A stretch of 37,862 nucleotides of DNA from Bacteroidota bacterium (lineage in GTDB: Bacteria > Bacteroidota > Ignavibacteria > Ignavibacteriales > Ignavibacteriaceae): the NCBI GenBank assembly GCA_021778375.1, contig JAJYCM010000002.1:1-37862 (forward strand). The letters are read 5' to 3'. The position numbers and the translations under genes are program-made. The notes under the pieces are model-generated. The model did no database searches and was not told where the DNA came from. It saw only the letters and a program-made list of their open reading frames with translations. Positions 2,201 through 35,875 of the stretch are shown here, in pieces; the stretch's first letter is position 1; each line of letters begins with the position of its first letter.

Positions 2201-3465
2201 AGGGGGATGTTAAGAAAAACTTCCGGCTTCTTAACAAGGGATCTTACATACTAAAGGCCCATTGGAAAAAAATTGTATGGCTGAATCCCCAAGGAAAAAT
2301 TCAAATTAAGCAATTAAAATATAATGACAAATGGAGTGCTTTAGGAGAACCGCTGCGTTCTTTTAATTCTTTCTTTTGCGCTTATCCTTATATAGGTGGA
2401 AACGATGCATTAATACTGCACCGAGTAACCGGGAAGTTTAACGGAAAAGCATTTAATAAAGTAGGATTTTCCGCCATCGGACATAAAGGTAATAAAACCG
2501 AACTGGTACTTGTTCCTTTAATTCAGAGTGACGTAATAAAAGCAGGAAGCTCAATAGAACTGGATTGCATTTTAATGCCTTACGGAGACGATGCTTCATC
2601 ATATATCGAACCAATGCAGGAAGCTGTACGCTGCGGTCTTTCTCATCAAGAATTGGCAGATGCGGGAATTGATACTTCCGGTACAAACTTGAAAATATTC
2701 GGTCCTGAAGTGCATGTAAGTCACGGTGAATTAATCCGAGATCTTCCTCCTATAATAAGAGCAAAAGATAATTGGGCTGCATTCAATTACAAAGGCGGAC
2801 ATAATAAAATATCACTGGTGGTAAAGGGATTCTCATCCTATAAATTGCCGTTGTTAAGGGACGGTTCGGAGTTTATCGATTTGCAGGTTTTAGGAGGCGA
2901 TGGATATCAGGTTGTTAAAGATAAAGACGGTAATTATTGCTTTGTTTTTGCTGCGGGAGCAAGAACAACCAGGGCAGGCGGAAAATGGAAAACTGAAACG
3001 CACTCGTTTATTGTAACGGAAGCAGTTTCAAAAGGCAATATAAAATCGGTAAAATCATTAAACGGAGAAGTTAAACTAAAAATATCGGGAAAAGGAATGA
3101 CTAAATTAAAAAGCCCGCGAATATGGTGTCCGGCTAATAATTTAAAGAATGCCAAAGAATCAGTTTATACATCCGAATTTAATTCTAACGAAGCTGAAAC
3201 AATTCCTGTTGAATTGACTACGGATGCGGATTCATTATTATGCAATGTAAACTCATATTCTTCTCAAGGATTTCAAATGACAATATCTTGCAGTAAAAAT
3301 ATATTGTTCCGGGGAAGCGGATTAAATCCGGATTCGGAATATCTTATTAAAATGGAAGGTAAAGAATTAAAATTCAACACAAATGAATTGGGCGAATATC
3401 AATTTACAGCTCCGGCAGGAAAAAATATTACATTAAAATGTTCTACGGAAAGAAAGGCAGAATAA
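2176..3465 (+). pseudogene. C-terminal portion of an uncharacterised secreted/hydrolase-like protein, 5' end missing
   Basis: Frame 1 is open from just after the in-frame TAG at 2173 to 3465 (...KGDVKKNFRLLNKGSYILKAHWKKIVWLNPQGK...MPYGDDASSYIEPMQEAVRCG...). It reads as coding well upstream of the ORF-track ATG at 2575 and does not resemble GH31 C-terminal domains. Confidence 0.55.
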
Positions 3466-8639: not shown

Positions 8640-9875
8640 ATGGTAGAGAAAAAATTATTTTTTGAAATATTTTTAATATTATTCTTTGTGATATTATTCC
8701 CGCTTCAAAATTCTTTTCCTCAGAATAATCGAAATAATACTGGAATTTTAGTAAAAAATAATTTATCTAAAAGTAAATACGATATTGCCGCGTTTTATTG
8801 GCCCGACTATCATTATGAGCCGAGACTGAAGTTTATCTTTCCAGGTAAAAAAGGCGAATGGGAAACTGTTTGGAACGCAAAACCCAAAGGGAAAGGAGAA
8901 TACCAACCTAGAGTTCCCCTTTGGGGCTATCAGAATGAAGCTGATCCTAAGGTAATGGACGAAAAAATCAAAGAAGCCGTTTTGCACGATGTTAACGTTT
9001 TCATTTTCGATTGGTACTGGTTTAACGATAAACCGCTGCTTGAAGACTGCCTTAATAACGGATTCTTAAAAGCCAATCATAACAGAATGAAGTTTTACAT
9101 AATGTGGGCTAACCACAATGCCACCTCCTACTGGAATTATAAGGACGCAAAAAAGGATTCAGTTTATTGGACAGGTAAAGTAAATATGAATGTATTTAAA
9201 AATATTGTGAACAGAATAATAAAGAAATATTTTTCTAAGCCCTCATATTATAAAATCAACGGTAAACCTGTGTTCGCGATATACCAGCTTGACAATCTAA
9301 TAAACGGATTAGGGGGACCGGAAGCAACAAAGAGAGCGCTGAAATATTTCGAGAAGAAGACTGTAGAAGCCGGATTTCCGGGCTTACATTTACAATCAAT
9401 ACTCTGGAGTGCTGTACCTAATAGTATTAAGATTGCTAACGATGTTTTAGTGAAAGGGCAGAATAAAGTTCTGGATTATTTCGGCTTTGATAGTTTTACC
9501 AACTACACTTGGGCTCATTTAGTAAAACCGGAAGGTGACTATGATAAATGGGCTGATGCAAGTACATATATTTGGAAGACATACAGCAAGAAATTTAATA
9601 TCCCGTATTTTCCGCAAGTCTCAATCGATTGGGATAACAATCCAAGGTACCCGGCATCTGTTAAAACTCCTTATATAACGAATTCCGGTCCTGAGAAATT
9701 TAAGAAATATCTAATTAAAGCAAAGGGATACTTAGATGAACATCCTGACCAGCCAAAATTAATAACCATTAATGCCTGGAACGAATGGACGGAGGGTAGT
9801 TATTTGGAACCGGATAAAAAATTCGGTTATGGATATTTGGACGCAATTAAGCAGGTCTTTGAGCCCGCTAAATAA
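8640..9875 (+). CDS. WbsX-like / GH99-like TIM-barrel protein, secreted
   Basis: N-terminal hydrophobic signal; AAFYWPDYHYEPR, FIFDWYWFNDKPLLEDCLNNGFL, FYIMWANHNAT and terminal INAWNEWTEGSYLEPD are WbsX-family hallmarks. Confidence 0.85.
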   Translation: MVEKKLFFEIFLILFFVILFPLQNSFPQNNRNNTGILVKNNLSKSKYDIAAFYWPDYHYEPRLKFIFPGKKGEWETVWNAKPKGKGEYQPRVPLWGYQNEADPKVMDEKIKEAVLHDVNVFIFDWYWFNDKPLLEDCLNNGFLKANHNRMKFYIMWANHNATSYWNYKDAKKDSVYWTGKVNMNVFKNIVNRIIKKYFSKPSYYKINGKPVFAIYQLDNLINGLGGPEATKRALKYFEKKTVEAGFPGLHLQSILWSAVPNSIKIANDVLVKGQNKVLDYFGFDSFTNYTWAHLVKPEGDYDKWADASTYIWKTYSKKFNIPYFPQVSIDWDNNPRYPASVKTPYITNSGPEKFKKYLIKAKGYLDEHPDQPKLITINAWNEWTEGSYLEPDKKFGYGYLDAIKQVFEPAK

Positions 9876-9979: not shown

Positions 9980-12820
9980 ATGAAAATAAAATTTCTATTG
10001 CTCATTTTATTTATGATTACTATCGGGGATATATCTTTCTGTAACCCTGGATCTGAAGGAAGTCTAAATGCAGTTCAATTACAATGCGAGTATTTGTCGA
10101 ACCCGATTAATATAGATAATGTCAATCCGAATTTGAGTTGGATATTGAAAGCAACAAAAAAAGATGGCAGAAACTTAAGCCAGTCGTCTTACAGAATTTT
10201 AGTATCCAGCAGTATAAAATTATTAAAAGATAATATAGGTGATCTATGGGATTCCGGCAGAATTAAATCTTCTAATTCCGCTCGAGTTAGATACGAAGGG
10301 AAAAAATTAAATTCGAGGCAAAGGTGTTATTGGAAAGTGAAGGTTTATGATCAAAATAATAAGGCATCAGATTGGTCTTCAATTGCAGAATGGAAGATGG
10401 CTCTTCTGAATAAAAAAGACTGGAACGGATCTATGTGGATCGGATTAGGAAAAGACGAACGGACTTCACCGTTAAGGTTCCGTCCGTTTCAAACTTCAGA
10501 TATGAAAGAACCTGTCCAGGAATCCTCACATGCTTCGCCATTGTTGAGAAAGGAATTTAAGATATCCAAAAAAATAACAAATGCAACTTCCTATATTGCA
10601 GGGCTAGGATATTATGAACTTTTCATTAACGGTAAGAAAATAGGAGATCATGTATTAGATCCCGGGCAAACCAATTACGATGTTTATTCTTTATATGCAA
10701 CATATGATATTACAAAAAATTTGAAAAACGGCGAGAATGCCATAGGTGTAATGCTGGGGAACGGATTTTACGGACAGAATATTGCATTTGCAAACTGGTT
10801 GAATTACGGTAAACCGAGGATGAGATGCAGAATATTTATAACATACGAGGATGGTTCGATAGATACTGTAGTCTCCGATTCCACTTGGAAAGCTTCGAAC
10901 GGACCAGTCATTTTTGATAATGTATATGCGGGAGAAACATACGATGCTAGGAAGGAAAAGAAAGGTTGGGATGAAGCTGGTTATAACGATTTGAACTGGC
11001 AGAAAGCGGAAATAGAAAAATTTCCGAATGATAGTCTGCGTTCTCAGTTGATGCCGCCGATAAAAGAAATCTTGACAGTGAAGCCGGTAAATATATTTAA
11101 AGCTAAAGATGGTAATTGGATAATCGATATTGGTCAAAACATTTCCGGGTGGGTAAGAATAAAAGTAAAAGAAAAAGCGGGCACTAAAATAACAATGCAT
11201 TTTGCTGAGAACTTAAAACCGGATGGGAATGAATTAGATTATGCTTCACTTGGAACTTCTGCCACTGGAGTATTACCAACAAATATTTATGTATGTAAAG
11301 GCAGCGGTTGGGAAACATGGGAACCAACTTTTACATATGCAGGATTTCAGTACGTTGAAATATCCGGTTTGACTCAAAAACCTACCAATGAAACGGTACA
11401 AGGAATTATTGTTCATACCGCTGTTAAGAGAATTGGACATTTTCTCTCTTCAAACAAGATGCTTAATAAAATTTATGAAGTTTCTTTAAGAACGATAGAA
11501 GATAATTTACACAGCATACCGACAGATTGTCCGGACCGAGAAAAATGCGGCTGGCTTGGAGACGCCCATACTACAGCTAATACCGATCTTTACAATTTCG
11601 ATATGTACAGATTTTATGTTAAGTATCTGAGAGATATTATAAGCCAATTAGGCAGGGGCGGCGAAACATACAAGCATGAACCTGCAACTCCAGGAATACC
11701 GACAAATATAGCTCCCGGAAAAAGAATCTGCCAGGAAGCAAGAGTAGATTGGGGAGCGGCTATAGTTTATCTCCCTTATGATTTATATCTCTACGATGGG
11801 GATATTCGTCCGTTTAAAGAATTATATCCGCACATGAAAGATTTTATAAAATACACCGAACGATATGAATCATCTAATGGGATAATACAAAACGGCTATG
11901 GAGATTGGTGCCCTCCGGATGGAAACAAAAACATGGAATGTCCTCCAGAACTTTCTTCCACCGCTATATATTATAACATGTTGGATATTCTTAGCAAGAT
12001 TTCACCAAAGCTTAACGATATTGAATATTCCAAATTATGTACTGAGAAAAAAATATCAGTTAAGAAAAATTTTAATAAAGCATATTTAAAAAAGATTCCC
12101 GGTACTGATTATTGGGGATATGGAAGTCAAACCGCTGATGCGATGGCATATAGTTTCGGTCTCGTTCCAGAGGATAAAATCAAGTCTTTTGCTGAAGGTC
12201 TTGTATATGATATAAATAAACTGCACAACGGTCATCTTACAACCGGCATTCATGGCAGCAAATATATTTATAATGTCTTGTGCGATTTGGGTTACTCTAA
12301 ACTTGCATATAAGGTTATGACAGAACCAACATTTCCAAGTCTGGCTTATACGATTTCATGCGGATTCACAACATGGCCCGAAGTTCCTCTGGAATACAAA
12401 AACAGAAACATTCAAAGGACTTCTTCGTTTAACCATCCTATGAACTCCGGCTTTGCCGCGTTCTTTAGCGACGGCATCGGCGGAATTCTGCCGGACGCGA
12501 ACAAACCCGGCTTTAAGCATTTCTATCTGAAGCCAGCGTTTATTAAAATACTGAAGTATGCAAATACCGATTTAAATTCGAAATACGGTATGATAAAGAG
12601 CGACTGGAAGAGTAAAAATGGAGTTTTCGAATGGAATATAGAAGTGCCTTGTAATACTACTGCAACTATTTACGTCCCATCGGCTTCCTCGGAAAGTGTA
12701 AAAGAAAGCGGACGACCAGTTAAGGAGAAATCGGGAATAAATTTCATTAGTTATAAAAACGGAATCGCAGAATATCAAATAGGATCCGGGATTTATAGTT
12801 TTACGTCGTCTTTGCGTTAA
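9980..12820 (+). CDS. GH78 alpha-L-rhamnosidase, secreted
   Basis: Signal peptide; SWILKATKKDGRNLSQSSYRILVSSS start, YYELFINGKKIGDHVLDPGQTNYD, catalytic-region IPTDCPDREKCGWLGDAHTTANT. Confidence 0.94.
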   Translation: MKIKFLLLILFMITIGDISFCNPGSEGSLNAVQLQCEYLSNPINIDNVNPNLSWILKATKKDGRNLSQSSYRILVSSSIKLLKDNIGDLWDSGRIKSSNSARVRYEGKKLNSRQRCYWKVKVYDQNNKASDWSSIAEWKMALLNKKDWNGSMWIGLGKDERTSPLRFRPFQTSDMKEPVQESSHASPLLRKEFKISKKITNATSYIAGLGYYELFINGKKIGDHVLDPGQTNYDVYSLYATYDITKNLKNGENAIGVMLGNGFYGQNIAFANWLNYGKPRMRCRIFITYEDGSIDTVVSDSTWKASNGPVIFDNVYAGETYDARKEKKGWDEAGYNDLNWQKAEIEKFPNDSLRSQLMPPIKEILTVKPVNIFKAKDGNWIIDIGQNISGWVRIKVKEKAGTKITMHFAENLKPDGNELDYASLGTSATGVLPTNIYVCKGSGWETWEPTFTYAGFQYVEISGLTQKPTNETVQGIIVHTAVKRIGHFLSSNKMLNKIYEVSLRTIEDNLHSIPTDCPDREKCGWLGDAHTTANTDLYNFDMYRFYVKYLRDIISQLGRGGETYKHEPATPGIPTNIAPGKRICQEARVDWGAAIVYLPYDLYLYDGDIRPFKELYPHMKDFIKYTERYESSNGIIQNGYGDWCPPDGNKNMECPPELSSTAIYYNMLDILSKISPKLNDIEYSKLCTEKKISVKKNFNKAYLKKIPGTDYWGYGSQTADAMAYSFGLVPEDKIKSFAEGLVYDINKLHNGHLTTGIHGSKYIYNVLCDLGYSKLAYKVMTEPTFPSLAYTISCGFTTWPEVPLEYKNRNIQRTSSFNHPMNSGFAAFFSDGIGGILPDANKPGFKHFYLKPAFIKILKYANTDLNSKYGMIKSDWKSKNGVFEWNIEVPCNTTATIYVPSASSESVKESGRPVKEKSGINFISYKNGIAEYQIGSGIYSFTSSLR

Positions 12821-18726: not shown

Positions 18727-21700
18727 ATGTCAATTTTTAAGAATTCGATTTTTGTCTTAATTTTTTTACTCCTTACTTTATCTTCCCCTAGAGCTGAATC
18801 AGGGGAAATGATAAGATCTTACAAACAAAATCGTATCGCTTTGATTTTGTCGAAAAGCAATAGTAATGATATAAAACTAAATGTGGGAAATAATAACGTA
18901 TACGATATTGTGACAACCGGGAAGAATCCGTTTGTAACGACAGAGCCGGTAAGGCAAAATTTGGAACCAGGTAAATACGTTTTATCGTTTGAATATTTTT
19001 GTCCGAAAGGTCTTGACAAATTAGTAATATTTTTTGGTCCTAATTTCACTCCATTCAAAAAAATTGTAATCAATCGGCTGTCGCCAAGCGAAGGCTGGGT
19101 AGCATTTTCAACCGAATTAGATAAAGCAGATAAAATTTGGAACGAAACAGGAAATATACTCAAGCTAAATCTCGGGAATCTCAAGGGTGCTAGAATTCAA
19201 ATAAGAAGTATTGAAATGCGATTGCCTACTGCGGGAGAGAAAGCCTTGGCTGAGGAGAGGAAAAATAATGAGAGAAAAGAAGTAATACTGGATAAAGATC
19301 TGAGTAATTATCTAATTAAGGATTATAGTTCGGCAATTACTTCGGTATCTGTTGAGAAAGATAATATAAAAATCGAAGGGATTTCAAAGTCGATTAATGA
19401 GATGTACTTATGCGAAGTACCTCCTTATCAGAATGTAACGGAAGATTCAACATTTGCAACTGAAATGCCATTAAAAAGCGAAAAATTTTCGGTAACGCTT
19501 AAAAGATATGTTGATGAAGGAGGTTTTAAATATGATAGAATACTATCTAAATGGGTTTTAGCTGTAAAAAATGGGAATAAATATCAAATAGTTTCTCACG
19601 CGCATTATGCCGATAAGATTTATTCGAAATATAATTTACCGGATGAAAAGCCTTTAACCAAAAAAGGACTTGGCGGTTTTAGTGTCGACAGAGGACATGT
19701 TAGTGATTTAAAGAATCTTGGTATTACCAGTGTAACAGTTAATATTTGGTTTACAAAATTTATATACTCAAAGCCTTCTCTCAATAGAATTGAGCATATT
19801 TATGATGGTATACCATATTACTTCGACCGGAAAGCAGTTCAAGAACTGGACTCTACTCTTAGAACAACCGCACGAAGAAAAATAATAGTATCTGCTATCT
19901 TATTGGTTAATAAGGCTAAAGATTGTCCCGATCCCGAAATAGGAAAGTTGTTACAGCATCCTGATTTTGATCCGGCTGGAATCTACAGTATGCCAAATAT
20001 GACTAACCCGGCTAGTGTTAATTGTTATGCCGCCGCTATAGATTTCTTTGCCAGCAGATACAGTCGTCCAGATGAAAAATACGGCAGAATAAATCACTGG
20101 ATCATCCACAACGAAGTTGATGCCGGGTGGGTTTGGACGAATGCTGGCAATGAACCACTGAATGTATTTATGGATAATTATATTAAGTCCATGCGGCTAG
20201 TTTATAATATTGCAAGAACTTATAATCCCCATTCGAAAGTTTTTATATCGTTAACACATTATTGGAATTGGACTACAGATAAACATTTCTTTTTACCTAA
20301 GAAGATGTTGGAATTACTTGTAGATTATTCTAAAGACGAAGGTGACTTTGATTGGGGAATAGCTCAGCACCCTTATCCAGAAGATTTATTCAATCCAAAA
20401 AGCTGGTTGGATACACTGTGTACATTTACTCTTAATACCCCACTCATAACTTTTAAAAATATTGAAGTCTTGAACGATTGGGCTAACCAACCTCAGACAT
20501 TTTATCTAGGTAAGTACCATAGAACCATTTATCTGTCGGAGCAGGGACCGAATTCTCCTGATTATTCAAAAAAAAGTTTGACTGAACAAGCTGCCTGTAT
20601 GGCTTATGCTTGGAAAAAAATTGAAAAACTTAAAAACATCAAAGCATTTCAATATCATAACTGGATTGATGCTCGCGGTGAGGGTGGATTGCGCATAGGG
20701 CTTCGTCGTTTTCCAGATGACAGTACTGATCCGGGCGGAAGGAAACCTATCTGGTTTGTTTATCAAAAACTTGGAACACATTCGGAGGATTCCGCATGCA
20801 GTTTTGCAAAAAAAATTATCGGGATACAAAACTGGAGTGAAGTTAGATATATTGGTCCAATTGATTCTACGGAGCGCGCATCTATTTACAGAAATGTTCA
20901 AAGCGATACCTGGACAGCAACGGATGCATTAGGACGTAAACTTCCCGGATATAGAGAATGCGGTCCCATTAAAAAAGACAGATTTGTCGGAATTTTTTAT
21001 TTTATGACTCATGTTAATCATGGCGACAAAGGTCCTTTTAACGTAACCGAAATTTTGAAGAAGAACCCGGAGCATCCCAATTGGGGAAGTGGCAATAATT
21101 ATTATTGGGGTGAACCAGAAATCGGTTACTATTTAAATACTGATGAATGGGCAATTCGCAGGCATGCATACGAACTGGTTAATGCAGGCATAGACGTGAT
21201 CATATTTGATGTAACTAACGATAATACTTTTCCACAGGTTTATCTGACTATTTGTAAAGTATATCGAGAGATGAGAGCAGAAGGTGAGAAGACACCATAT
21301 ATTGCTTTCCTAGGGAGTGAGATTTCGGTTAATAAATTATGGAATGAATTTTATAAAAAAGCTCTTTACCCCGATCTTTGGTTTTATTGGAAAGGGAAAC
21401 CATTAATCTTATTCGGTCAGCATGAAATTCCCAGTAGACATAAAATGAACGATGTCAGATTTTCTGACCAGATTACTAAATTCTTTAGCCTCAGGCAAAG
21501 TTGGGCTTGGACTTCTCTGCCATGGTATCATAGCTGTCCTTACGGTAAGGATAAATGGCCATGGGTGGATCATTATCCTCAAGCCATCGGATGGCACGAT
21601 TCACCAGACGAAAAAGAAATGGTGCCTGTTGCAGTCGCTGAACATCCTTTATCTAATATAGGCAGAAGTTTTCACGATTTTTATCAACCCGAACCTAATA

Positions 21701-22638
21701 AATATGATCTCACACCTTACACCGCAGAGGGTTTGTGTTTTCAAGAGCAATGGAACAGAGCATTAAATGTAGGACCTAAATTCGTTTTCGTAACAGGATG
21801 GAACGAATGGAGTGCAGGCAGACAGGTTATGGGAAAGGATGTAAGCAAAGAACTTCTGAAATGGAAATTCTATCCGGGAGCTCATCTGGGCAAAGCTGGT
21901 AAACCTATCAAACCGGGAGAAAGTTATTTCATCGATCAATATAATGAAGAATATAGCCGAGATATTGAACCTATGAAGGGCGGATATGGTGATGATTATT
22001 ATTATCAACTTATTGCAAACGTAAGAAGATATAAAGGAGTGGAAAAGCCTGTTAAAGCTGGTCAAGAAAAATCCATTAATATCGCAGGTGATTTCGATCA
22101 GTGGAATAATATAACAGCAGTTTATTATGATCATATCGGAGATACAATGCATAGGAACGCATTAGGGGAAGATCAGGCTGGACCGTATATAGATAACACC
22201 GGCAGAAATGATTTCGCAATATTAAAGGTAGCCAGGGATTCTAACTACATATATTTTTATGCTGAGACAGTAAAATCTATTACTCCATATACCGACAAGC
22301 ACTGGATGTTGCTTTATATTGACTCGGATACCAACACGTCTACAGGATGGGAAGGTTATGATTTTGTTGTTAACAGAAAAATTATAAACCAAAATACTAC
22401 CATTATAACAAAATTAAATAAAGACGGTTCTTTTGGTAAATCTTATCATGTGCATTTCAAAACTGAAGGGAACAAACTTATGATTGCAATTCCCAGAAGA
22501 ATATTAGCTAACAAGGGAAAAGCTTTATTTGATTTTCATTGGGCAGATAACATTCAAAAATTCGGAGATATAAACGAATTTTCTTTGCATGGTGATAGTG
22601 CCCCAGACAGAAGATCAAATTATCGTTTCGCTGAATAA
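18727..22638 (+). CDS. Large multidomain secreted protein: N-terminal beta-rich region, DUF5722-like barrel, WbsX/GH99-like barrel, C-terminal CBM9-like domain
   Basis: One uninterrupted 1303-codon ORF. DUF5722-like: LGITSVTVNIWF...INHWIIHNEVDAGWVWTN...PHSKVFISLTHYWNW...TIYLSEQG. WbsX-like: AYELVNAGIDVIIFDVTNDN...VTGWNEWSAGRQV. CBM9-like: ILKVARDSNYIYFYAETVKSITPYTDKHWMLLYIDSDTNTSTGWEGYDFVVNR. Confidence 0.75.
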   Translation: MSIFKNSIFVLIFLLLTLSSPRAESGEMIRSYKQNRIALILSKSNSNDIKLNVGNNNVYDIVTTGKNPFVTTEPVRQNLEPGKYVLSFEYFCPKGLDKLVIFFGPNFTPFKKIVINRLSPSEGWVAFSTELDKADKIWNETGNILKLNLGNLKGARIQIRSIEMRLPTAGEKALAEERKNNERKEVILDKDLSNYLIKDYSSAITSVSVEKDNIKIEGISKSINEMYLCEVPPYQNVTEDSTFATEMPLKSEKFSVTLKRYVDEGGFKYDRILSKWVLAVKNGNKYQIVSHAHYADKIYSKYNLPDEKPLTKKGLGGFSVDRGHVSDLKNLGITSVTVNIWFTKFIYSKPSLNRIEHIYDGIPYYFDRKAVQELDSTLRTTARRKIIVSAILLVNKAKDCPDPEIGKLLQHPDFDPAGIYSMPNMTNPASVNCYAAAIDFFASRYSRPDEKYGRINHWIIHNEVDAGWVWTNAGNEPLNVFMDNYIKSMRLVYNIARTYNPHSKVFISLTHYWNWTTDKHFFLPKKMLELLVDYSKDEGDFDWGIAQHPYPEDLFNPKSWLDTLCTFTLNTPLITFKNIEVLNDWANQPQTFYLGKYHRTIYLSEQGPNSPDYSKKSLTEQAACMAYAWKKIEKLKNIKAFQYHNWIDARGEGGLRIGLRRFPDDSTDPGGRKPIWFVYQKLGTHSEDSACSFAKKIIGIQNWSEVRYIGPIDSTERASIYRNVQSDTWTATDALGRKLPGYRECGPIKKDRFVGIFYFMTHVNHGDKGPFNVTEILKKNPEHPNWGSGNNYYWGEPEIGYYLNTDEWAIRRHAYELVNAGIDVIIFDVTNDNTFPQVYLTICKVYREMRAEGEKTPYIAFLGSEISVNKLWNEFYKKALYPDLWFYWKGKPLILFGQHEIPSRHKMNDVRFSDQITKFFSLRQSWAWTSLPWYHSCPYGKDKWPWVDHYPQAIGWHDSPDEKEMVPVAVAEHPLSNIGRSFHDFYQPEPNKYDLTPYTAEGLCFQEQWNRALNVGPKFVFVTGWNEWSAGRQVMGKDVSKELLKWKFYPGAHLGKAGKPIKPGESYFIDQYNEEYSRDIEPMKGGYGDDYYYQLIANVRRYKGVEKPVKAGQEKSINIAGDFDQWNNITAVYYDHIGDTMHRNALGEDQAGPYIDNTGRNDFAILKVARDSNYIYFYAETVKSITPYTDKHWMLLYIDSDTNTSTGWEGYDFVVNRKIINQNTTIITKLNKDGSFGKSYHVHFKTEGNKLMIAIPRRILANKGKALFDFHWADNIQKFGDINEFSLHGDSAPDRRSNYRFAE

Positions 22639-22667: not shown

Positions 22668-25049
22668 ATGAAAATTCAACAAATACATTTCCGGTTACTT
22701 CAATATATTGTGCTTTCAATGCTTATTATTGTTTCATTAAGTAAGGATTTAAATGCTCAATCAATTGAATACAAAAATTTTATAAAGCATCCTCCTACTG
22801 TCGATCCTACTTATGGTAAGCCTATACCGGCTGTTAAACACAGGTCAGGACCTATTGCCGATTGGATATGGAGTAACAGTACTTCAAACGAACAAAAAGT
22901 GTATTTCCGAAAAACTTTCATGATACATAATCTTCCGAAATCCGCGGTTATATATATAACCGGCGACGATGGATATTTCCTTTGGATCAACGGACGTCCA
23001 CTTGAAAAAGAACTTACACCGGAAGACAATCTTACATGGAAAAATGTACAACATTGTAATATTACTAAGTATTTGCTTAAAGGGAAAAATATTATAGCTG
23101 TTGAAGGCATAAATAAAAAAGGAACCGCAGGCATTCTTGCAATGCTTAATTTTAACGGAAAGCTTCTATTAACAACAGATAAAACATGGAAAGTTTTTAA
23201 CGAAATTACTCCTCCTATGTTATGGAATCAAATTAATTTCAATGATGAATTATGGAGGACGGCAAAAGTTATTACACCTTACGGCTCAGGTTATTGGGGG
23301 AGCGATGTAGCAGCTTGGCCTGGTGCCGGAGGAGATGAAGAATATTTTGCACATATGCCTATCATGCCGAAAAAAGTATATGTTAAATCAGGTGAAGGGC
23401 ATATAACAGGTGCCGAATCTTTGACTAACTTTAAGGGGGGAAAAGTGCTTATAACTCCAACTTCTTCACCTTCGGATACCCAACATGTTTTAATGTTTGA
23501 TTTCGGTAATGAGTTGGCTGGTAGATTGCAAATCTGGGGTACAAGAGGCAGGAAAGTTATTATTACGACTGGTGAGTCTGTCCAAGAGTGTACTCACGAA
23601 GAATTAGCTTTAGATAACCATGGTCCTTTTACTCTTATACTGGAAGGAAAGCAACCGTCTTCTACACCTTATACTGCCTTTCGCTATGCAAGAATTCAGT
23701 ATAATGGTTCGAAACCTCTGAGGCTAACAAAGGTATTATGCGATTTCAAATATTATCCTGTTAGTTACAAAGGTTCATTCAACTGTTCAGATTCTCTTCT
23801 TACACAAATTTGGTATGCAGGAGCCTATACTGCACATCTTTGTATGCAGGAAGATATTTGGGATGCCCCGAAACGGGATCGAGGACTCTGGATTGGGGAT
23901 ATGCAAGTTAGCGGACAAACAATCAATGTTGCTTTCGGTGACAAGTTTTTAATGGAACATTCTATAGAACGTGTAAGGGATTTGGCACAAGGCGATAGAC
24001 CAGATAGTGCACTTCCTTTGTCAGAAGTCAACTCAATACCCGGATATTCGGCTGCTTGGTTCTGTACGCTTGCGGATTATTATTTACATCAAGGAGATAA
24101 AAATTTTCTGAAGAGACAGCATCAAAAAATTATTTCCCTTCTTAAATATTTGCAAACTGATTTCGATAACAAATATCTTTTTAATAATCCTCATAAAGTA
24201 TGGGATTTCTGCGACTGGGCTCCAGGATTTGTCTTAGATGGACCCTTTGCACTTGCAACTACAGATCTTTTTATTATATACGGTGTAAAAGAGGCGGTTT
24301 TTCTCTTGGATCAGTTGGGAGACAAAGTAAATGCTGATCATTTTAAAAAATGGAACAGTCAGCTTATACAAGCAGCACGACATAATCTTTTTAATGATAC
24401 TTCAAAAACCTACAGCAAGCGACTTCAAGAAAACGTTATGGCTGTACTTTCCGGCGTTGCTAAACCAGAACAGGATTCAATAATTTTCAAGCATGTTATA
24501 AATCCGGAAAGCCCTGCCTGGATAGTACCGAAAGGAAAAAGCTTAAGAGATAACGAAGTTATGTCACCTTATTACGGTTACTTTGTTATAAACGCTATGA
24601 ATAAGTTAGAGCACGATAATACTGCACTCAACCTTATAAGAAGATATTGGGGAAACATGTTGTCGCGAGGAACTACAACCTGGTGGGAGATGTTCGATCC
24701 TTCATGGCCGCGCGACTTTAATTGGGTTATTAATCGTTTGCCCTATTTGAGTTTGTCTCATGGATGGTCTTCCGGACCGACGTCATTTTTAACGGAACAC
24801 ATTTTAGGAGTACAACCGGTAGCGTCTGGATATGATGATGTAATTATCAAACCTAATTTATGTGATCTTAAGTGGGCAGAAGGCAGTGTTCCGACCCCCC
24901 ATGGAATCATATTGGTTACTGCTTTTTACCGGAATAATAGGCTTACTGTCAAAGTTAAACTTCCCTCAGGCATCAGAGCTAATATTTTAGTTCCAGGTAT
25001 ATCCCGGAGAGTTTATGCACAAGGTGAATACATTATCACTTCAAAATAA
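22668..25049 (+). CDS. GH78-like alpha-L-rhamnosidase (second paralogue), secreted
   Basis: Signal peptide; WIWSNSTSNEQKVYFRKTF, GDDGYFLWINGRPLEKE, catalytic-region DIWDAPKRDRGLWIGDMQVSGQT, C-terminal TTWWEMFDPSW...SLSHGWSSGPTSFLTEHILGVQP. Confidence 0.88.
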   Translation: MKIQQIHFRLLQYIVLSMLIIVSLSKDLNAQSIEYKNFIKHPPTVDPTYGKPIPAVKHRSGPIADWIWSNSTSNEQKVYFRKTFMIHNLPKSAVIYITGDDGYFLWINGRPLEKELTPEDNLTWKNVQHCNITKYLLKGKNIIAVEGINKKGTAGILAMLNFNGKLLLTTDKTWKVFNEITPPMLWNQINFNDELWRTAKVITPYGSGYWGSDVAAWPGAGGDEEYFAHMPIMPKKVYVKSGEGHITGAESLTNFKGGKVLITPTSSPSDTQHVLMFDFGNELAGRLQIWGTRGRKVIITTGESVQECTHEELALDNHGPFTLILEGKQPSSTPYTAFRYARIQYNGSKPLRLTKVLCDFKYYPVSYKGSFNCSDSLLTQIWYAGAYTAHLCMQEDIWDAPKRDRGLWIGDMQVSGQTINVAFGDKFLMEHSIERVRDLAQGDRPDSALPLSEVNSIPGYSAAWFCTLADYYLHQGDKNFLKRQHQKIISLLKYLQTDFDNKYLFNNPHKVWDFCDWAPGFVLDGPFALATTDLFIIYGVKEAVFLLDQLGDKVNADHFKKWNSQLIQAARHNLFNDTSKTYSKRLQENVMAVLSGVAKPEQDSIIFKHVINPESPAWIVPKGKSLRDNEVMSPYYGYFVINAMNKLEHDNTALNLIRRYWGNMLSRGTTTWWEMFDPSWPRDFNWVINRLPYLSLSHGWSSGPTSFLTEHILGVQPVASGYDDVIIKPNLCDLKWAEGSVPTPHGIILVTAFYRNNRLTVKVKLPSGIRANILVPGISRRVYAQGEYIITSK

Positions 25050-35056: not shown

Positions 35057-35875
35057 ATGATAATGTATGATATTCACGACAAGACAAGTTTAATATCAAA
35101 TTTGTTTTTGTCTATAATAATACCCGAACAACTGTTTGAGCCCGAAAACAATTGGGAACACAAATATTTCGGAATAGATACATACTCTGCAATTTCAAAC
35201 CCAAAGATTATAAGAAAAAGAATAGAGCTTACAATAGAAAGGAAAAATCAGACTAACGGATTTAGCAATCTAACAATTAAAACGGAGCGTTACTGTAAAA
35301 GTAACTTCTTTTTTTATGCCGATGCTGAGTTGAAATGCAAGAACGACGAAATATCCACACCATTGCTATGGACTTATGAATCAAAGGTAGCAAAAAGAAG
35401 AAGTGATACACCGTATCTTAAAAGCGGAATGAAAAAAAATATTAAGGTTGCCGAAAGAAAATTAATTGTTGAAACGGGCGAAGTTTCCTCAAAAATGGAG
35501 CTCTCAGACAACTATACATGTAAATGGTGTCTTTTGGATGCGATTCAGAGAATGCCTAAAGTACCGGATAAGTCTTTAGAGTTTAAAATGATTGATGAAT
35601 ATGATTCGATCATAGGGGATCAAACTTTACGATTCAGAGAGGCAGCCAAAACCGAAACCGGAAACGGAATGAAAGATATCTATTGTTTCGAACTGTTAGG
35701 CCCCGGAACTATACCAGCTACTTATTGGATTGATTCTTCAGGAAGACTTCTATTCTATCTTTCTGGTATGGAGCTTTTAGTGCTAACAGAGGAAAACGGT
35801 AAAACAGTAATTCCGATTTCTATTTTTTCCGATTGGCAAAAAAAAAGCACTTTTGATTTGACCTTACCAGGGTAA
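35057..35875 (+). CDS. Uncharacterised 272-aa protein, predicted beta-rich, no evident signal peptide
   Basis: Complete ORF with a codirectional start upstream of the last sulfatase. Contains DNYTCKWCLLDAIQRMP and a C-terminal IPATYWIDSSGRLLFYLSGMELLVL segment that loosely recalls DUF3108/DUF6134-type barrels. Confidence 0.65.
   Translation: MIMYDIHDKTSLISNLFLSIIIPEQLFEPENNWEHKYFGIDTYSAISNPKIIRKRIELTIERKNQTNGFSNLTIKTERYCKSNFFFYADAELKCKNDEISTPLLWTYESKVAKRRSDTPYLKSGMKKNIKVAERKLIVETGEVSSKMELSDNYTCKWCLLDAIQRMPKVPDKSLEFKMIDEYDSIIGDQTLRFREAAKTETGNGMKDIYCFELLGPGTIPATYWIDSSGRLLFYLSGMELLVLTEENGKTVIPISIFSDWQKKSTFDLTLPG

Follow-up and report, generated by a model that had tools for sequence, protein, structure and literature searches.

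A conserved fusion of a DUF5722 domain with a GH99-like barrel, and a candidate poly-A frameshift site between the two halves in two marine Flavobacteriaceae

Does a bacterial gene that seems to hold two enzyme barrels encode a genuine, conserved protein, and if so, which enzymes have been joined and on what substrate might they act? The question is raised by a gene in a 37,862-nucleotide stretch of DNA (positions 1 to 37,862 of contig JAJYCM010000002.1, assembly GCA_021778375.1; hereafter the window) from a member of the Ignavibacteriaceae (Bacteroidota). The gene (18727..22638, + strand) is a single intact open reading frame (ORF) that runs from an ATG at 18727 to a stop codon at 22638 and encodes 1303 amino acids (aa), with no internal stops. 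We find that the fusion is genuine and conserved, and that it joins two domains from uncharacterised enzyme families. Multi-catalytic carbohydrate enzymes as such are already known, and the surprising part is a frameshift between the two halves in two marine relatives.

The layout of the protein was derived from the ORF itself, Pfam, structural models and in-frame homologues. A Sec-type signal peptide (MSIFKNSIFVLIFLLLTLSSPRAES; 18727..18801, +), read by eye and with an approximate cleavage site, precedes an N-terminal beta-sandwich (18802..19323, +), a DUF5722 (PF18989) barrel, the Pfam domain of which covers residues 308 to 706 (19648..20844, +), an inter-barrel linker (20845..20901, +), a barrel of the glycoside hydrolase (GH) family GH99/GH71 fold (residues ~726-1110; 20902..22071, +) and a C-terminal beta-sandwich (22072..22635, +). 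The DUF5722 match is extensive (400.5 bits versus a gathering score of 30.5, E = 1e-119, model positions 4 to 393 of 393) and is the only one that Pfam and NCBIfam return for the fused protein; the second barrel receives no Pfam call when the protein is searched alone, and phmmer comparison of the whole protein with the PDB yielded nothing beyond one chance match. The second barrel was recognised instead by a family profile, a predicted structure and Foldseek. Profile searches and structure prediction therefore recover two barrels rather than one, in agreement with the preliminary description of this DNA, which had proposed one uninterrupted ORF with two separate barrels. Its DUF5722-like block was correctly identified, with bounds (19360-20910) that differ from those of Pfam (19648-20844), and its list of modules, accurate for the barrels, lacked the N-terminal beta-sandwich; nor did it note the A9 frameshift described below, which only comparison with relatives reveals. 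The N-terminal module (residues ~26-200), modelled with moderate confidence, resembles carbohydrate-binding modules (CBMs) of families CBM4/16/29 in a Foldseek search with this mediocre model, and a similar module is tandemly repeated in long DUF5722 proteins of genomes G688 and G103. The C-terminal ~190 aa are predicted to form a beta-sandwich in the model of the second half; this domain had no Pfam match, and a 19-member profile found no match in the PDB (profile searches only, with no separate fold search), so that the CBM9-like tail suggested earlier was not confirmed.

Because the window derives from a metagenome-assembled genome (MAG) in 384 contigs, the fused ORF could in principle be an assembly join of two genes. 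A search for the same two-domain order disposed of this concern, recovering in-frame fusions in G711, a congeneric MAG in which the protein is 77% identical and the neighbours are the same, in G507 and G521, which belong to the family of Ulvibacterium, the Flavobacteriaceae (55-56% identity), and in the acidobacterium Granulicella sp. L46 (52% identity). With five genomes from two phyla, including the window and the one-contig genome G521, carrying the fusion, we regard an assembly join as ruled out, its probability being negligible. In the phylogeny of second halves, those from fused proteins group as a single clade (support 1.0), and since this clade spans Bacteroidota and Granulicella, the fusion appears to be old. 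The only clean split within the clade is L016, a gene that stands alone, begins with a signal-peptide-like sequence of its own (MKHPAIIILLLLTGISIQVKAQ) and has no DUF5722 gene within 6 kb. No further members were found in the genera of G103, Ulvibacterium, G521 and G507. An additional DUF5722 protein considered as a second fusion (L117, in a 1576-aa frame) was rejected, as it contains no GH99-like barrel, only repeated modules and a C-terminal tail.

In two marine relatives, Ulvibacterium marinum (NZ_RBCJ01000004) and the finished flavobacterial genome G103, the halves are adjacent, with the second one in the -1 frame. The junctions, which correspond to the linker between the barrels, read GGA AAA AAA AAC TGA in Ulvibacterium (L115:3575-3620) and GGA AAA AAA AAG CCC AAA CCT TAA in G103 (L006:1440-1530), each comprising a run of nine adenines (A9) with a -1 slippery heptamer, A AAA AAC and A AAA AAG, respectively. 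At the same place, the in-frame genes of G521 and G507 have A10 and A7, and the linker of the window gene has no A-run. One additional A in the mRNA, or a -1 shift, would continue the first half as GKKKLKSS.. in Ulvibacterium and GKKKAQTL.. in G103, the former sharing KKKLKSS with the in-frame EKKKLKSS.. of G521; the predicted fusion peptides across the Ulvibacterium junction are IGKKKLKSSTNIPNQNW. In both genomes, the second frame offers no ATG, GTG or TTG upstream of the conserved TW..TDALGR block, and it lacks the signal peptide that most of the inspected stand-alone relatives possess. Stand-alone DUF5722 genes end about where the unshifted product ends. For the out-of-frame half of Ulvibacterium, the ratio of nonsynonymous to synonymous differences (pN/pS) was 0.17 versus G521 and 0.16 versus G507, compared to 0.17 between the in-frame G521 and G507; these are ratios of proportions, not distances, with synonymous sites saturated. 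The out-of-frame half is thus under purifying selection as strong as that between the in-frame relatives.

Three explanations are compatible with these data: recoding, phase variation and two recent mutations. Recoding, by either ribosomal -1 frameshifting or transcriptional slippage, is a reading that we hold tentatively. Under it, the fusion would be made when RNA polymerase adds an A or the ribosome shifts by -1 on A AAA AAG or A AAA AAC, and the unshifted product would be a DUF5722-only enzyme, ending where natural stand-alone DUF5722 proteins end. One gene of these Flavobacteriaceae could then give rise to both a DUF5722-only enzyme and a bifunctional fusion in a ratio set by poly-A slippage, an arrangement we consider possible, though short of probable. 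The pair combines three features of slippage genes, namely, a slippery sequence, a startless second frame and in-frame fused homologues, the last of which GeneTack takes as a sign of recoding in a split pair (PMC3711429). The closest parallel is the alpha-L-fucosidase gene fucA1 of Saccharolobus (S.) solfataricus, likewise a glycoside hydrolase gene split at a poly-A heptamer, which is expressed by -1 frameshifting at A AAA AAT and has full-length relatives that differ by one A (PMC8211752). That case is archaeal, with a single enzyme split near its N-terminus and recoding proven, whereas the A9 pair is bacterial, involves two domains and is known from sequence. Similarly, Thermus dnaX and the transcriptional slippage of insertion sequence (IS) elements involve nine sense-strand A's and more than one product (PMC1088944); the A9 pair, by contrast, is a sequence observation.

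Several considerations weigh against recoding. The frameshift is present in two genomes only, each of which may have acquired a recent one-base mutation; the G103 junction may contain an assembly error; a lysine-rich linker by itself partly predicts an A-run; and RNA folding 3' of A9 gave no consistent structure (z of 0.3 in G103 and of -2.3 further downstream in Ulvibacterium). Homopolymer error is not general, because sense-strand runs of at least nine A's, which are rare in the four flavobacterial regions (one or two per 31-49 kb of protein-coding DNA), otherwise lie in intact ORFs. The A9 runs might instead be recent one-base deletions or phase-variable contingency tracts, in which the DUF5722-only and fused forms alternate through replication slippage (A10 to A9), recoding during expression playing no part, and this, too, is a serious candidate that we stop short of calling likely. 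It accords with the variation of the run among relatives (7, 9, 9 and 10 A's), the likely hypermutability of long A/T runs (PMC1088944), the association that GeneTack draws between phase variation and poly-A/T tracts near frameshifts, often in genes for surface or secreted proteins (PMC3711429), and the failure to find a conserved downstream RNA structure. It is harder to reconcile with the same -1 phase in two genera, correctable at the same run during transcription, and with out-of-frame halves that show neither stop codons nor acceleration. Re-initiation of the second ORF at an alternative start, either a TTG in the DALGR motif or, in Ulvibacterium, a CTG overlapping the TGA, seems improbable: while the second frame and the stop overlap tightly, in the manner of translational coupling, and the TTG is present in both genomes, that codon lies inside the conserved TW..TDALGR block, which a start there would delete, and the product would lack the signal peptide found in L016 and most of the stand-alone relatives inspected. 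The window contains an A9 run of its own, at 35838, near the 3' end of an ORF (35057-35875) without a Pfam family.

What, then, are the two enzymes? Relatives of the second half were gathered from one genome per species, yielding at least 375 confirmed candidates, of which 80 were kept; by record titles, they span at least Bacteroidota, Planctomycetota, Verrucomicrobiota, Armatimonadota and Acidobacteriota. A second-barrel profile built from a 41-member alignment matches GH99 endo-alpha-mannosidase structures in the PDB (4acy, E = 1.7e-6). Consistently, the predicted structure of the second half (predicted local distance difference test score, pLDDT, 86.3; predicted template modelling score, pTM, 0.90) retrieved GH99 and GH71 structures in Foldseek (probability 1.00, E = 6e-6). 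Among the 41 members, 26 match Pfam GH99, and one matches WbsX at E ≤ 0.1 (E = 0.011); the WbsX model (PF14307) has no match in the fused protein. The label WbsX/GH99-like given in the preliminary description accordingly holds for the GH99-like part, by profile and fold, and not for Pfam WbsX.

The roles of E333 and E336 in catalysis by bacterial GH99 enzymes are established. Both residues appear in the titles of mutant structures among the Foldseek matches. In the alignment with 4acy, the NEW of the GWNEW block, which is invariant in all 41 members, falls on the NEW of the GH99 NEWHEG motif. Glu1027 aligns with E333 and is a glutamate in 41/41 members; Ala1030 occupies the position of E336, with alanine in 40 members and methionine in the remaining one; Asp828 is also invariant. 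The fused barrel and the GH99 endo-alpha-mannosidases and endo-alpha-mannanases (4acy, 4ad1, 5m5d and human MANEA) thus have in common the (beta/alpha)8 fold, the NEW motif and the first catalytic glutamate, but differ in that the fused barrel has alanine for E336, shares about 12% identity in structural alignment, is followed by an extra beta-sandwich and, in the window protein, is passed over by the Pfam GH99 model. The second barrel is therefore a GH71/GH99-fold family distinct from Pfam WbsX and without the second GH99 catalytic glutamate; with alanine in its place, the acid of this barrel would have to lie elsewhere. A separate WbsX gene (PF14307, 164.8 bits; 8640..9875, +) in the window belongs to the same GH99-like superfamily but to another family: it reads NEWTEG, with both GH99 glutamates, whereas the fused barrel reads NEWSAG. 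Hence, the locus does not carry one domain in both free and fused form, as had been supposed.

Two observations concern relatives of this barrel. A 4-kb contig (G000:C249; L002, L003) carries at each end an identical 61-aa portion of a stand-alone GH99-like gene that has a C-terminal sorting-type tail, which suggests a tandem copy or a circular join. In MAGs of the same genus (L123, L127, L128, L131 and L135), GH99-like relatives in frames of ~700-880 aa match the barrel as two non-contiguous pieces, which may reflect insertion of a domain into it.

The model of the DUF5722 half has a pLDDT of 59. As read, its eight barrel strands end at fragment residues 294, 316, 368, 437, 487, 523, 580 and 620, with Glu463 (HNEV) ending strand 4 and Glu605 (LSEQG) ending strand 7, and both glutamates are kept in all aligned Bacteroidota and Granulicella homologues. 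This would be consistent with a (beta/alpha)8 enzyme of the clan GH-A type using Glu463 and Glu605, an assignment that rests on motif positions because the model is weak. The window protein matches PF18989 over its full length, and differs in its fusion to a GH99-like barrel from most of the relatives seen, which are stand-alone or carry repeated modules at the N-terminus and a secretion-type tail at the C-terminus. Long DUF5722 frames (1400-1576 aa) of this kind, whose N-terminal modules are repeated, occur in G103 (L164, L165) and G688 (L159:8449-13125), and the tail was read in L164 and L159. In the plasmid collection, the only DUF5722 relative is a distant one on pCY360 of Butyrivibrio proteoclasticus (L166:5722-7335); lacking both glutamates and lying among mostly hypothetical or plasmid-type genes, it is a possible pseudoenzyme.

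Which glycan the fused protein acts on is suggested by its neighbours. By profile matches, the window contains a GH78 alpha-L-rhamnosidase gene (9980..12820, +) and a GH78-like gene directly downstream of the fused gene (22668..25049, +), adjacent in G711 as well; besides these two GH78-type rhamnosidases, it encodes five sulfatases and one radical-SAM/SPASM protein of the sulfatase-maturing kind. The Ulvibacterium locus comprises SusC/SusD, GH78, a sulfatase-GH78 fusion and sulfatases. Beside these lie genes for an FGGY kinase, a bifunctional aldolase/dehydrogenase of the RhaD type, which exceeds its cut-off, and a homologue of L-rhamnose isomerase, which at 495 bits falls short of the curated cut-off of 647, so that the locus appears to adjoin an L-rhamnose catabolic operon. 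GH106, GH78 and sulfatases are found at the G103 locus, GH78 in G521, GH106 and GH78 with no sulfatase match in Granulicella, and only partial, weaker GH78 matches in G507. Across 77 other second-half loci, GH78/GH106 were the commonest of the tested families, at 16 loci (a raw count, without a background rate). Because GH78/GH106, sulfatase and rhamnose catabolism genes lie near the fusion, our best guess at the substrate is a polysaccharide rich in rhamnose, which in the marine cases would be sulfated. Two further observations belong to these loci: one Ulvibacterium protein of 1176 aa (L150:10617-14144) joins a sulfatase to a GH78 rhamnosidase domain, and in one window gene (698-2200), only the initial quarter of the GH31 barrel model is matched before the gene stops, with an ORF without family (2575-3465) after it, so this GH31 may be truncated or broken.

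Taken together, the window protein is probably a secreted glycoside hydrolase with two catalytic modules for a rhamnose-rich polysaccharide. Its second half keeps one GH99 carboxylate (Glu1027) and not the other (Ala1030); with the barrels joined by a short linker and flanked by beta-sandwiches, one exported polypeptide could act on two linkages, or at two places along the same chain. The earlier proposal of a bifunctional enzyme acting on one glycan is upheld as regards two catalytic-type barrels, and action on a shared glycan is plausible, strengthened by the conserved fused clade and the rhamnosidase-rich neighbourhoods. Against two active modules stand the replacement of the second GH99 glutamate by alanine in 40/41 members, which could mean a non-hydrolytic or binding barrel, the glutamines at both candidate positions of the Butyrivibrio megaplasmid homologue, and the poor DUF5722 model. 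In addition, a literature search returned no paper naming DUF5722, PF18989, or WbsX with GH99, and no known activity for either domain; searches on WbsX with polysaccharide utilization and on rhamnan utilisation likewise found nothing. One barrel might then be non-catalytic or regulatory, in which case the protein would be one enzyme carrying a large binding domain. We consider this rather unlikely, given the invariant first glutamate, GWNEW block and Asp828, the wide occurrence of the stand-alone second-barrel family with signal peptides, and the strong purifying selection on both halves.

A fusion with two catalytic modules, which we favour, would connect two uncharacterised GH-like families, of which one is widespread, with one another and with rhamnose-rich polysaccharides, and hence with a concrete substrate class. 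As a GH99-superfamily family without the canonical carboxylate, the second barrel offers a test case for a change of mechanism within a fold. Should the A9 sites prove functional, a bacterial carbohydrate enzyme that other lineages make as fixed in-frame fusions would owe its module content to recoding, and gene callers would be annotating each such enzyme as two genes, one for DUF5722 and a second one without its head.

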